Shown: one piece after another, positions 5,578-10,845 of the stretch
How the letters are laid out: every line of letters begins with the position of its first letter
Numbering within the stretch: position 1 is the first letter of the stretch
Virus record (IMG/VR): IMGVR_UViG_3300042731_003330
Location: 1 to 35,903 of that record
Origin: a virus
Length of the DNA: 35,903 nt
Direction: 5' to 3' (one strand)
Notes under the pieces: generated by a model
What the model was told of the DNA's origin: nothing
Databases searched by the model: none
Seen by the model: only the letters and a program-made list of their open reading frames with translations
Position numbers and translations under genes: made by a program

Positions 5578-6336
5578 GTGCCGAGATCTAAGAAGATATC
5601 AGAGTTCAAACCTCTGTTCACTAATTTAGCGCAAACATCACACTATCAAGTTTCTTTTGGTGGTCTCTCTAATGATTTAGTTTCCTATTTGAATAGGAGA
5701 GGAATTACTAGAAGATTTATTGCAGAAGATGCTGGATTACTTTGCTCTTCTGCATTTATTCCTGGAAGTGGACTAGCAACTGCTGATGTTGAGGGCAACT
5801 TCATGGGCGTGATGGAAAAGTTTGCCCACACTAGAATTTTTACTCAAATTGATTTAGAATTTTATGTTGATAGTGATTACAGGATGCTAAAGTTCTTAGA
5901 GCATTGGATGGAATTTGTTAGTAGTGGATCTGGAGCAAATCAAAATCAAGATGGATATTACTATAGAATGAGGTATCCATATGCAGATAAAAATGGATCA
6001 AACGGTGGTTACAAGTGTGATAAAACAAAGATAGTAAAATTTGAACGAGATTATAACAGAGAAATTGAATATACTTTCAGAGGAATGTTTCCGATTAATT
6101 TATCTTCAACACCGGTAAATTATGAAGCTTCTAGAATCATGAAAGTTAGTGCATCATTTAACTTTGAGCGTTATATTACTGGAAAAGAAACAAGTATTGC
6201 AGAGAAACAAGGTGTAAACAACAATAAGGAGAATAATAAACCTAGAGAACTGAATCTTTCTGCGATTGAGCAGTATAGTCAAGTATTAAGTGATGAAGAA
6301 AGATTGAAACAACTAGAAATTAATAGGGTCCTCTAA
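5578..6336 (+). CDS. gp54: gp54-like baseplate tail tube initiator
   Basis: gp54 sits on gp48 and nucleates the tail tube in T4. The 252-residue product (T4: 320) has the tube-protein character: an N-terminal beta strand (TSHYQVSFGGL), EDAGLLCSSAFIPGSGLATAD in the first hundred residues, RIFTQIDLEFYVDSDYRML in the middle, and VSASFNFERYIT as the closing strand, followed by a polar C-terminal extension. The start is a GTG at 5578 with AAGG about 8 bases upstream, and no ATG is available near it. The gene begins the long rightward tail operon. The homologous T4 tube protein gp19 shares this fold, but the neighbours favour gp54. Confidence 0.7.
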   Translation: MPRSKKISEFKPLFTNLAQTSHYQVSFGGLSNDLVSYLNRRGITRRFIAEDAGLLCSSAFIPGSGLATADVEGNFMGVMEKFAHTRIFTQIDLEFYVDSDYRMLKFLEHWMEFVSSGSGANQNQDGYYYRMRYPYADKNGSNGGYKCDKTKIVKFERDYNREIEYTFRGMFPINLSSTPVNYEASRIMKVSASFNFERYITGKETSIAEKQGVNNNKENNKPRELNLSAIEQYSQVLSDEERLKQLEINRVL

Positions 6337-6377: not shown

Positions 6378-7097
6378 ATGCCTTTACCAAAGATTAATAC
6401 TCCAATTTATGAATTGGAAATTCCTTCGATTAAGAAAAAGATTCGATACAGACCATTTCTAGTTAAGGAGGAAAAGATTCTTATCATTGCGATGGAATCT
6501 GAAGATCAAAAACAAATTACCAATGCTATTAAGACAGTAATTGGTAATTGTATTTTGAGTAGAGGTATTAAGGTAGAAAACTTATCAACTTTTGATATTG
6601 AATATCTTTTCTTAAACATCAGAGGTAAATCTGTTGGTGAATCTGTAGATATTTTAGTAACTTGTCCAGATGATGGTGAAACTCAAGTTCCAGTAACTAT
6701 TAATCTTGATGAGATTGAAGTTAAAAAAGATCCAGATCATAAAATTGATATTAAACTGGATGAAAATTTAAAAATGAGAATGAAATATCCATCACTCTCT
6801 GAGTTCATCAAAAATAATTTTGCAATGGAAAATTCTATTGGTGTTGATGAATCTTTTAAATTAATTTCGTCTTGTATTGAACAAGTTTATAATGAAGAGG
6901 AATCGTGGTCTGCATCTGATTGTTCCAAAAAAGAGTTGGATGATTTCATTGAACAACTAAGTTCAAAACAGTTTAAAGAGATTGAAAAATTCTTTGATAC
7001 AATGCCCAAACTTTCACATACATTGAAAGTTAAGAATCCAAATACTAATGTTGAAAGTGAAGTTGTCCTTGAGGGTCTAGCAAGTTTTTTCGCATAA
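6378..7097 (+). CDS. gp26: gp26-like baseplate hub/tail assembly chaperone (0-frame product)
   Basis: The 239-residue protein matches the T4 gp26-type baseplate hub family (T4: 208): MPLPKINTPIYELEIPS at the N-terminus, KKIRYRPFLVKEEKILIIA next, LSTFDIEYLFLNIRGKSVGE near residues 73-92, a beta-rich CPDDGETQVPV region, then an acidic helical second half. It sits directly before the tape-measure genes, the place held by the G/GT tail chaperones in phage lambda. The 3' end carries a slippery T-TTT-TTC with a hairpin behind it, and the next frame (7100-7279) is open in the -1 register. Both a 239-residue and a 300-residue product are therefore likely. Confidence 0.8.
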   Translation: MPLPKINTPIYELEIPSIKKKIRYRPFLVKEEKILIIAMESEDQKQITNAIKTVIGNCILSRGIKVENLSTFDIEYLFLNIRGKSVGESVDILVTCPDDGETQVPVTINLDEIEVKKDPDHKIDIKLDENLKMRMKYPSLSEFIKNNFAMENSIGVDESFKLISSCIEQVYNEEESWSASDCSKKELDDFIEQLSSKQFKEIEKFFDTMPKLSHTLKVKNPNTNVESEVVLEGLASFFA

Positions 7098-7111
7098 GTA
7101 TGGCGCATACT
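7085..7111 (+). other. Probable -1 programmed ribosomal frameshift site
   Basis: The heptamer T-TTT-TTC (7085-7091) lies in the reading frame of the gp26-like gene with codons TTT TTC, so both tRNAs can re-pair one base back. Five bases later AGTATG (7097-7102) pairs perfectly with CATACT (7106-7111) around a GCG loop. The zero-frame stop TAA is at 7095-7097, just past the slip site. After slippage the ribosome reads CGC ATA AGT ATG and continues to the stop at 7277-7279. Confidence 0.7.
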
Positions 7112-7279
7112 GATCTTGCGTCATACTATCAGATTAATTTTGCCTTAATGCAGCATCATAAATATAGTTTGACAGAACTAGAAAATATGATTCCTTGGGA
7201 GAAAGAAATATATCTTACACTCTTACAGCAATACATTGAAGAAGAAAATCTAAAACAGCAGCAAGGCAGTGGCATCTAA
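7100..7279 (+). CDS. C-terminal extension of the gp26-like chaperone, reached by -1 frameshift (T-like)
   Basis: The frame encodes 59 residues from ATG 7100, with HHKYSLTELENMIPWEKEIY as the core and a glutamine-rich end. This is the look of the short second reading frame of lambda-type tail chaperones. There is no ribosome-binding sequence before the ATG (the preceding bases are the T-run and GCATAAGT), and the ATG itself is buried in the hairpin stem. It is therefore more likely translated as a fusion: 238 residues of the gp26-like protein plus 62 from 7091 onward, 300 in all. The stop overlaps the tape-measure start by 11 bases. Independent initiation cannot be excluded. Confidence 0.7.
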   Translation: MAHTDLASYYQINFALMQHHKYSLTELENMIPWEKEIYLTLLQQYIEEENLKQQQGSGI

Positions 7280-9248
7280 ACTTTCCAGGAATATTTTACA
7301 ATCTGCAGCTTTAAGTGGGGTAAATCCTTCTACTGGACAGTATTTGTCACCATCTCAAAGAAAAGCTATTTTTAGAAGAAGTAAAGTAAATTCTGCAAAT
7401 GTCTTTGCTAGATCTAGCAGTGACTTAGTTGCCGCAAACTCTTCTGCTATTGTAAAATATCAGGATAAATCATCTTCGATTAAACTTGATAAAGTTATTT
7501 CATATTTTAAGAGACAGGAGCGTGAGGATAAAAAATTAAAAAAGAGAGAATTAAAACTCTTAAGAGAACAAAAAATAGAGAGAGAAAGACAGAGAGAATT
7601 ATTAAGAAGAAAGGAAAAAGAGGAAGGACTAGAGGGTGGTTTTGGTAAAAAACTTGCTAAAACGTTAATTGCACCAGTAAAAGCAACTGCTGCAAAAACA
7701 CAAGGAATATTACAACAATTACTTGATTTTTTTCTTGTCGTATTTGCTGGTTGGTTAACCGATAAAGGTTTATTAGCAATAAAATTAAGTGCTGAGGGAA
7801 ATACTGAAGAATTAAAAAATTTAGCAGCTGAAGTAGGTATTGCCTTAGGTGCTGTTACAGCAACTCTTGGTATATTGAATGGATCATTGATTGGACTTGC
7901 GGCAACAATTGGTGGTCTTGCACTTGGAGTTACTACTTGGTTAGCAACAAGACCGTTTGCTTGGGCAAGAGGATTCATACAAGGTAGAAATCAACCTCGC
8001 GTAAATCCCAATAGACAAACTGGAACGGGAACGGGTAGGGGTAGAACTACTGTTACTCAGGGTAGAGGTGGTCAATCTCAACCCAGAAATCCTTTAAGAC
8101 CGAGAGCACCTGTTACTCAGAGTAGAGGTGGTAGAACAACTTTCAGAGAAAGATTTGGAATTAAACCTGGAATAAGATATAGATTTGGACAATTGATGAA
8201 AGGATATAAACCAGGTTCTGGTGCAGCACCACCTGGTCCTAAAACTTCCGGTACTGGTTCTGGTGTGGGTGCAGGAGCGGCAACGGTTGCTATGATGTTA
8301 CTTCCTTTGTTTGAAGAACCTATCAATAATTTATTATATGATGCTGGATATATGGGTTACTCAAGATTATCTGATGGTGAAATGCTACTTCAATTGCAAA
8401 AATATGACAAAAAGATGATAGCACATGAAAAAAGGATAAATGATGAGGAACAAAAAGCAAAGAATGGTGGATACTGGCAAAACACGGCAAAATTTATTGG
8501 TGATACTCTTTCTTCTATGCTTCCTAATGAAATGGATAGCGATTTAAGAGCTTTTGCTGCACTGTATAGACTATCTCAAAATAGAGGATTAATTGATTCT
8601 GAAGGGAATCTAACGGATAAGGGAGGAAAAACAGAAGTACCTACTGCAAAGGTTACTCGTGTAACACCAACTTTAGAAAATTTAAAATTAGCTTTAGATA
8701 AACTCAATAAGAGTAAATCCGGAAGTGGTGAATCTATCGTTGTTCCTGGAGTTGGAGTGGTTGTAAGAGGTCATAATCTTGGTGGATTAGTTCATCAGGA
8801 CAAATATTTTGATCCAGAGGGTAGTCCAATGAATCAAGAAGAGTTTTCTTTTGCTATTCAGAGTGTACAAAGAAAACTTCAACGTAAACAAACAGAACAA
8901 TCGACAGAACAAACACCAGAAACACCTACAGCACCAGTTAGTAATGTTCCACTTGGTAGAAATGATCCGTTCGCACCAGTAACACCAGAAACATCGGTAG
9001 CACCGACAATTTCACCAACAGTTGAACCACAGACAGCTCAAGTTGATCCTATTCCACTTCGTCGTTCTATACCAGAACAACTTCCAGAACCAGCACCAAA
9101 CGTTATCTACAAGAGAGTTGGGGGACAACAAAATCAATCAGCATCACTTAAGACTGGATCTGCTACTGATGTTCCATCAATACCATCATCGAATCCGGAT
9201 AATTTCTATACCATGTATTCTCAAATGAACTATAATGTGGTAGATTAA
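7269..9248 (+). CDS. Tape-measure-like tail protein 1 (gp29-position)
   Basis: A 659-residue protein directly after the chaperone genes, where the tail-length ruler is expected. It has a long charged coiled coil (about residues 77-119, rich in K, R and E), hydrophobic segments at about 147-171 (LLDFFLVVFAGWL) and 186-232 (alanine-, glycine- and leucine-rich), an arginine/glycine/glutamine-rich low-complexity linker (about 238-300), and a proline/threonine-rich C-terminal region. Hydrophobic segments and coiled coils are usual for tape-measure proteins. The first 170 residues are paralogous to the next protein. The GTG start overlaps the previous frame. T4 gp29 has 590 residues. Identification rests on position and composition, not on a specific motif. 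Confidence 0.65.
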   Translation: MASKLSRNILQSAALSGVNPSTGQYLSPSQRKAIFRRSKVNSANVFARSSSDLVAANSSAIVKYQDKSSSIKLDKVISYFKRQEREDKKLKKRELKLLREQKIERERQRELLRRKEKEEGLEGGFGKKLAKTLIAPVKATAAKTQGILQQLLDFFLVVFAGWLTDKGLLAIKLSAEGNTEELKNLAAEVGIALGAVTATLGILNGSLIGLAATIGGLALGVTTWLATRPFAWARGFIQGRNQPRVNPNRQTGTGTGRGRTTVTQGRGGQSQPRNPLRPRAPVTQSRGGRTTFRERFGIKPGIRYRFGQLMKGYKPGSGAAPPGPKTSGTGSGVGAGAATVAMMLLPLFEEPINNLLYDAGYMGYSRLSDGEMLLQLQKYDKKMIAHEKRINDEEQKAKNGGYWQNTAKFIGDTLSSMLPNEMDSDLRAFAALYRLSQNRGLIDSEGNLTDKGGKTEVPTAKVTRVTPTLENLKLALDKLNKSKSGSGESIVVPGVGVVVRGHNLGGLVHQDKYFDPEGSPMNQEEFSFAIQSVQRKLQRKQTEQSTEQTPETPTAPVSNVPLGRNDPFAPVTPETSVAPTISPTVEPQTAQVDPIPLRRSIPEQLPEPAPNVIYKRVGGQQNQSASLKTGSATDVPSIPSSNPDNFYTMYSQMNYNVVD

Positions 9249-9249
9249 A

Positions 9250-10845
9250 ATGATAAAACCAGCAATACGTAGACCAGGAACTAGTTCTAATAATCTTACT
9301 TTAAAAAGATCTTTTATTAGTCGTGAAAAAGTTTTTAATGATAAGTTTGATTCATATAAACAAAGAGAGCGAGAAAAAAGAAAAACAAAAGAAAAATTAT
9401 TAGAGTCTATTCCTTCTAAATCTGATATAACTAAACCCTTTGCTGGTATTGCCGCTAAAGGAAAGGGTATGTTGGATACTCTTTTAAATTTTTTGGGAAC
9501 AATTTTAGTTGGATGGTTAATTAACAATCTTCCAGCAATAATTAAATTTGTTGAAAATCTTATTGAAAGAATAAAAAAACTTTTCAAGACATTAAAACAA
9601 TTTATTTCAAATTTAACAACTACGTTAAAGAAGTTTACTAACGTAATTGGTGCATATACTCAAAATTTAAAGGAATTTGATTTCTTTGATACTAAAGGTA
9701 GAGTAAAAAAAGCAACAGAAGAATTAGAAGAATCTTTTGAGGCAATGAAAAATGATCTCAATGAAGCAATGGGATTATTGACTACACCACTTGGTCAGGA
9801 TGGTGTATCTGGTGGAACATCTGGACCTGGACTTCAAGGATTGTCTTCATATATTATGCAGGCAGAAAGTGGAACAAATTATAATGTAATTGCTGGAGGT
9901 GCAGTTGATCCAAATCTAACTTCTATGACCTTAGAACAAATTATGAGAAAATATGAAGGGCAAGCAGTTGGAGCTCCACAATTTAAACCAGCAACTGCGA
10001 GTGGTCTCGCAAGACAGATGGGAGAGGATCCTAATGCATTTGTCTATTCCCCAGAAAATCAGAGAAAGTTGCACCAATTCCATCTAAGAAAACTTGGATA
10101 TGATAAGTTTAAATCTGGTCAAATGACTGCAGAACAATTTGGAACAAATATTGCACAACAATACAGAGCACTCCCTGATCCAAGAACTGGGCGTACTTAT
10201 GCTGATCAATATTCAAGATACAATACTGCACAGGTTTCTTTACCGTCATTTATGTCTCAACTCGAAAGATCGAAACAGGCATCGACACAAACTGGTGGTT
10301 CAGTTACTGGATATGTAACTGGGGATACAACACACCCAAATTATGCAGCAGATCATGATGGTGATAATTATCATGAACATTTTGGATTTGCTTCTACAGC
10401 AGAAAAAGACAGAGCAAAGGCAGCATTAGAAAGTGCTGGATTTGTAATTACTAGTGAATATAGACCAATGGATACCAATAGTGCTCATGGACAAAATCGA
10501 GCATTGGATGTTGGATTTTATCCAAGTGGTTTAACAAAAGGATACTCTGATGATAGAGCTGGAACTACTGCATTTAGTAGAGACGTTAGAAATGTATTAT
10601 TATCTGCTGGTTTTTCTGGAGTTGGAATTGGTCAATCACCAATAACTCCTGCTCAGACCAGTCAACCAGAAACTCAAGTTAGACCCCTTCAATCAGAAAG
10701 GAGGGGACAAACCGTTATTGTTATTGAAGAAGAACAACCGACAGCAGCAGTTCCTATTGGTGGATCTGATGGTGGAGTTATTATTGTCCCAGATAATTCG
10801 TTAAATAGACTTAAGAAACAACAATTTTTAAACTCTTTACAATAA
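9250..10845 (+). CDS. Tape-measure-like tail protein 2 with lysozyme-like and peptidase-like domains
   Basis: This 531-residue protein shares its N-terminus with the preceding one: basic coiled-coil region (about residues 38-52) and a hydrophobic segment (74-105) with MLDTLLNFLGTILVGWL resembling ILQQLLDFFLVVFAGWL. After a helical part, residues 197-325 look like a lysozyme/lytic transglycosylase domain: the QAESG motif gives a candidate catalytic Glu206, followed by VGAPQFKPATA as in phage lysozyme-type proteins. Residues 365-460 hold SAHGQNRALD (411-420), which fits the SxHxxGxAxD zinc motif of M15 peptidases with Asn in place of Gly, and an earlier HEHFGF (375-380). It could cut peptidoglycan glycan and peptide bonds during DNA entry. 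The domain calls are by eye. Confidence 0.65.
   Translation: MIKPAIRRPGTSSNNLTLKRSFISREKVFNDKFDSYKQREREKRKTKEKLLESIPSKSDITKPFAGIAAKGKGMLDTLLNFLGTILVGWLINNLPAIIKFVENLIERIKKLFKTLKQFISNLTTTLKKFTNVIGAYTQNLKEFDFFDTKGRVKKATEELEESFEAMKNDLNEAMGLLTTPLGQDGVSGGTSGPGLQGLSSYIMQAESGTNYNVIAGGAVDPNLTSMTLEQIMRKYEGQAVGAPQFKPATASGLARQMGEDPNAFVYSPENQRKLHQFHLRKLGYDKFKSGQMTAEQFGTNIAQQYRALPDPRTGRTYADQYSRYNTAQVSLPSFMSQLERSKQASTQTGGSVTGYVTGDTTHPNYAADHDGDNYHEHFGFASTAEKDRAKAALESAGFVITSEYRPMDTNSAHGQNRALDVGFYPSGLTKGYSDDRAGTTAFSRDVRNVLLSAGFSGVGIGQSPITPAQTSQPETQVRPLQSERRGQTVIVIEEEQPTAAVPIGGSDGGVIIVPDNSLNRLKKQQFLNSLQ

Follow-up and report, generated by a model that had tools for sequence, protein, structure and literature searches.

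Organization of the gp26/51 locus

The window analyzed here, by which we mean the whole 35.9-kb stretch of uncultivated-virus DNA, has a gene content like that of T4-like cyanophages, and its nearest named relatives include S-SKS1, S-SRM01 and P-SSM2. The gene order at the locus is tail tube, gp26/51, tape-measure position (Table 1). The tape measure was placed through annotated relatives, in which the gene at the position of the downstream ORF, or the next but one, is annotated as tail tape measure. This ORF shares 11 nt with the end of the frame that precedes it. It is the first of an adjacent pair of long ORFs (7269-10845; 659 and 531 aa), both at the tape-measure position, and its start is a GTG (7269) lying within the end of the preceding frame.

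The gp26-like gene belongs to the T4 gp26 family of Pfam (PF12322; E=3.8e-76, 256 bits, cut-off 24.5). It ends with GCA AGT TTT TTC GCA TAA, followed by GT ATG GCG CAT ACT. As an earlier sequence-only reading of this DNA had pointed out, a perfect slippery heptamer, T_TTT_TTC, lies in the zero frame 3 bases ahead of the stop, from which a single sense codon (GCA) separates it. The downstream frame, which is -1 relative to the gp26-like gene, is open from the slip site through to the TAA at 7277-7279 and is under coding conservation; the closest upstream stop in this register is 5 codons ahead of the heptamer. It corresponds to the small domain that annotations of relatives call gp51, “baseplate hub assembly catalyst”. 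The open -1 register had also been claimed in the sequence-only reading, together with a fusion of 300 residues, and both agree with our results: 238 residues of the gp26-like protein plus 62 of the -1 frame give a predicted product of that length. Early in the second frame, the only start codon is the ATG at 7100-7102. It has no Shine-Dalgarno (SD) match of at least 4 nt, and it lies in a paired arm of the downstream stem, bearing out the earlier statements that this frame has no ribosome-binding site and that its only ATG is within a hairpin stem.

Table 1. Features of the gp26/51 locus, in coordinates of the window
Feature	Position	Strand	Basis or remark
Tail tube protein gene, upstream of the gp26-like gene	5578..6336	+	Pfam Phage_TTP_2 (E=9e-20); phrog_45 tail tube
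gp26-like gene, putative short tail assembly chaperone (TAC-N), 239 aa	6378..7097	+	PF12322; phrog_150; AlphaFold model
SD-like GAGGGT, putative dnaX-like 5' stimulator	7069..7074	+	About 10 nt upstream of the heptamer
Slippery heptamer T_TTT_TTC	7085..7091	+	Sequence and conservation
-1 frame, putative C-terminal extension (TAC-C), 62 codons	7091..7279	+	phrog_634 (E=7.4e-28)
Zero-frame stop TAA of the short form	7095..7097	+	Sequence
11-bp stem-loop, putative 3' stimulator	7097..7127	+	Arms 7097-7107/7117-7127, 9-nt loop; holds ATG 7100-7102
Long ORF at the tape-measure position, downstream	7269..9248	+	Position; weak phrog_3405 match; annotation of relatives

Conservation of the slip site

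Among close relatives from viral contigs, all 80 have T_TTT_TTY (ending in TTC or TTT) at the end of the gene, and 79 have the gp51 domain in the -1 frame, the 80th ending too early for alignment. The annotated phages examined also have gp51 in the -1 frame. A wider set of relatives adds phages of Vibrio, Stenotrophomonas, Ochrobactrum, Pseudomonas, Aeromonas, Sinorhizobium, Rhizobium, Caulobacter, Acidovorax, Pelagibacter and Methylophilales. Of its non-redundant members below 85% identity, 58 of 59 have T_TTT_TTN at the gene end, 0-3 codons ahead of the stop, with gp51 in the -1 frame, and below 75% identity the heptamer is at this distance in 29 of 30, all of these counts coming from sequences of shared ancestry and not from independent events. 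The background for the motif is 5 in-frame matches at 13,292 codon positions elsewhere in the same genes. In 10 of the 58 heptamer-bearing relatives, a -1 stop lies directly ahead of the heptamer.

The codon before TTT TTN is always of the form NNT (AGT, TCT, GCT, GAT, AAT, CGT, GGT or ACT). The first T of the heptamer is the third base of this variable codon, which encodes Ser, Asp, Ala, Asn, Arg, Gly or Thr, and for the five amino acids whose codon usage was examined NNT makes up only 24-75%. In T4 gene 26, where no slip site is needed, Phe-Phe is retained but spelled G_TTC_TTT; the heptamer is thus not simply a consequence of the peptide. Since the heptamer and the -1 frame are conserved across relatives, coincidence is excluded.

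The sole lineage that we found without the heptamer comprises Vibrio D503 (L101, 2070-2110) and K388 (L123). Here the slip region reads TCA CTT TTC AAG TAATGG, and gp51 remains in the -1 frame. As the ATG overlaps the stop, this lineage may have switched to stop-start coupling.

Putative stimulatory elements

The sequence-only reading described a 6-bp hairpin (AGTATG/CATACT, 7097-7111) downstream of the heptamer. Such a hairpin is present, with the 5-nt spacer that had been noted, but with only -2.9 kcal/mol over 15 nt it is weak, and another fold is preferred: the same 5' arm pairs instead with a second CATACT further downstream, giving an 11-bp stem (AGTATGGCGCA/TGCGTCATACT) of about -15 to -16 kcal/mol. 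The 6-bp hairpin was consequently dropped as candidate stimulator for this more stable stem. The plus strand of the window has 20 TTTTTTN sites, and the slip site is the only one followed by a 45-nt fold at or below -12 kcal/mol; just 6 of 2,391 45-nt segments reach -16 kcal/mol. Across 47 sequences of the clade, 96.3% of cells are paired in the 11-bp stem, and its covariation score was never reached by shuffles. One stem pair is fully compensatory, being GC in 27 sequences, UA in 19 and AU in 1, and broken in none.

The 11-bp stem is confined to the clade of the window and a few others. A universal hairpin is ruled out: of 29 relatives with less than 75% identity, just 5 have an unusually stable fold at the site. 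The heptamer, the -1 frame and the hairpin had all been expected to be conserved across T4-like cyanophages; the first two are conserved across T4-like phages, and the hairpin is not. S-PM2 has a perfect 14-bp hairpin (TGTTCTATAATAAT/ATTATTATAGAACA; L109, about 2205-2255) 3' of the heptamer; its sequence is not related to that of the stem of the window. P-HM2 has at the same place a GC-rich hairpin of different sequence. In many lineages there is no hairpin after the heptamer. We observed that in L103, L117 and other hairpin-less lineages a GAGGG upstream of the heptamer is complementary to a CCCTC downstream of it, possibly forming a stem around the slip site, or a pseudoknot.

Upstream of the heptamer, the SD-like element of the window itself is just a 4-nt match. 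In relatives, SD-like matches exceed synonymous shuffles in length (0 of 200 sets reached them), a test inflated by the relatedness of its rows, and their usual spacer is 8-10 nt. At the Glu codon of this site, GAG is preferred 30:12, compared with 363:932 elsewhere. This pattern suggests a dnaX-like 5' element.

Relationship to T4 gp26 and gp51

T4 gp51 consists of a PF12322 domain (residues 1-201), like gp26, and the same C-terminal domain as the -1 frame of the window; T4 gp26 and gp51 are therefore short and long paralogues, the former matching the short form of the window. PF12322 is found in two copies in T4 and in Aeromonas phage Aes508, and in one copy in all 24 genomes with the frameshift layout. 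Short and long forms with a common N-terminal domain are thus specified by layout in the window and as paralogous genes in T4 and Aes508, and T4 differs from the window in having two genes and no heptamer. One group of phages appears to have met one problem with two solutions, frameshifting on one side and gene duplication on the other. In T4, gp26 and gp51 are both listed as hub assembly chaperones, and gp51 is required yet absent from the particle (PMC3004832).

The AlphaFold model of the gp26-like protein (pLDDT 86) has as top PDB matches the HK97 tail assembly chaperone (Z 7.8), 3fgx (7.7) and YqbN (3klu, 7.2), followed by a match at 5.4. The three top matches span residues 1-88 (about 85 residues) and, all being below Z 8, indicate a moderate resemblance in fold, supportive of the chaperone assignment but short of proof. 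No credible relative emerged when PDB sequences were searched with profiles of gp26 and gp51, the NCBIfam search gave nothing useful, and scans of viral contigs with single distant proteins returned few loci. Matches of gp41 to the gp51 profile were set aside as coiled-coil-like. From its homology, predicted fold and gene order, the gp26/51 of the window is likely a tail assembly chaperone of the lambda G/GT type.

Proposed mechanism and alternative explanations

We infer that a programmed -1 frameshift very probably makes the short and long forms of one tail assembly chaperone. A frameshift of this kind, fusing the gp26-like gene with the frame that follows, was the central proposal of the sequence-only reading, and it gains support from the conservation of the site and from the many relatives without an alternative start. 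The majority of ribosomes would reach the TAA at 7095 and yield the short form of 239 aa. A minority would slip back one base at T_TTT_TTC, where both Phe tRNAs could re-pair on TTT TTT; slippage would be aided by the 11-bp hairpin 5 nt further on, with a possible contribution from the upstream SD-like sequence, and the slipped ribosomes would produce the 300-aa form bearing the gp51 domain. If the parallel with lambda gpG/gpGT holds, the tape measure protein would be coated by the short chaperone in many copies and the long one in few, and the long form would recruit tail tube subunits through its extension. That slippage occurs, how often it would do so, and the chaperone function are predictions drawn from the comparison of sequences.

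Alternatively, gp51 could be a separate protein made by translational coupling, with ribosomes stopping at the TAA at 7095 and restarting at the ATG at 7100, the T run being a by-product of Phe-Phe. In the clade of the window the ATG does lie 2 nt past the zero-frame stop, gp26 and gp51 are annotated as separate genes in all records examined, and Vibrio D503 combines an overlapping TAATG with the lack of a heptamer. We nevertheless regard coupling as very improbable. Among the 58 heptamer-bearing relatives, 15 lack ATG, GTG and TTG alike within the initial 16 codons of the second frame, and an SD match of at least 4 nt accompanies a start in only 5, which rules out independent initiation of gp51 as a general explanation. 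In the window, the ATG is buried in the stem. The heptamer, moreover, is fixed at the nucleotide level, even at the third base of a variable codon, and the long form of T4 is one polypeptide.

The T run itself, 6-7 nt long in nearly all relatives, could also lead to the long form through slippage of RNA polymerase, with an extra U in some mRNAs, instead of ribosomal frameshifting. In bacteria, however, such slippage has been described at A or T stretches about 9 nt long (PMC5009743). Ribosomal slippage, for its part, requires the phasing of codons as T_TTT_TTN and a downstream stem such as the covarying one seen here, so that we hold polymerase slippage to be the least probable of the alternatives. 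It is unlikely, too, that both routes operate in the clade of the window, that is, that reinitiation at ATG 7100 yields some C-terminal domain in free form alongside the frameshift fusion, both under control of the stem. Nearly every member of the hairpin clade does have the ATG, as this would predict; it lies in a paired arm, though, where base constraint alone could retain it, and sister lineages (e.g., L034, L042, L062 and L065) have lost it.

Returning to the programmed frameshift as the preferred explanation, we tentatively suggest that the clade of the window carries a full three-part cassette (SD-like element, T_TTT_TTC and a stem hiding the ATG) and that the efficiency of the site differs by lineage. 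Under the same cassette reading, S-PM2 and P-HM2 would perhaps have replaced the stem, while Vibrio D503 went to stop-start coupling and T4 to gene duplication, a scenario that we put forward with some reserve.

Comparison with known systems

The 2022 work of Vladimirov and colleagues is said to have found frameshifting conserved in several groups of T4-like phages, with T4 using genes 26 and 51. Earlier, G-T frameshifting had been described as conserved in long-tailed phages except T4 (Atkins et al. 2016). The sequence-only reading knew of no such arrangement in T4-like phages; this did not stand, as it had already been described in outline in 2022, according to papers citing Vladimirov, Gautam & Davidson (Virology 566:9-15). 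As conveyed there, that study identified the tail assembly chaperones of T4-like phages (gp26/gp51), the same gene family as in the window; TAC-N genes of T4-like phages are known to have poly-T slippery sequences (PMC12846349), and in some T4-like phages the short and the fused form are encoded by separate genes (PMC10885494). On the evidence of these citing papers, the kind of arrangement is thus already known. Our literature search, in which the 2022 study was represented by the papers citing it, found no other description of the cyanophage slip site, and none of the covarying 11-bp stem, the SD-like element or the heptamer-less lineage.

The likeness to the G/GT layout of lambda, also proposed in the sequence-only reading, is the best explanation in view of the conserved heptamer and -1 frame. 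The lambda heptamer, G_GGA_AAG, differs from the T_TTT_TTC of the window, and the two systems share no demonstrated sequence homology. In Vandenendeviridae and Andersonviridae (phage Adele), a -1 frameshift is likewise conserved at the end of TAC-N, with a GTTTTT motif (PMC12846349); these are other phage families with another slip motif. The E. coli dnaX cassette resembles the locus in combining a heptamer and a downstream stem-loop with, possibly, an SD-like element at about 10 nt, which in the window is only suggestive. It differs in that dnaX slips at A_AAA_AAG and ends one codon later (PMC5009743).

Annotation of gp51

Cyanophage gp51 has been reported to be only about 20% as long as that of T4 (PMC3037559), and its short length is explained if it is the C-terminal part of a frameshifted chaperone. 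Most likely, what is annotated as “gp51, baseplate hub assembly catalyst” in cyanophages, vibriophages and other T4-like genomes is the C-terminal part of the chaperone and not an independent gene. None of the annotated records examined has a joined CDS for gp26/gp51. The gp51 region is unannotated in ACG-2014e, ACG-2014d, S-MbCM25 and Ah1 (L112-L114 and the L117 entry), and in P-HM2, HTVC008M and Melnitz gp51 is annotated with a late start.
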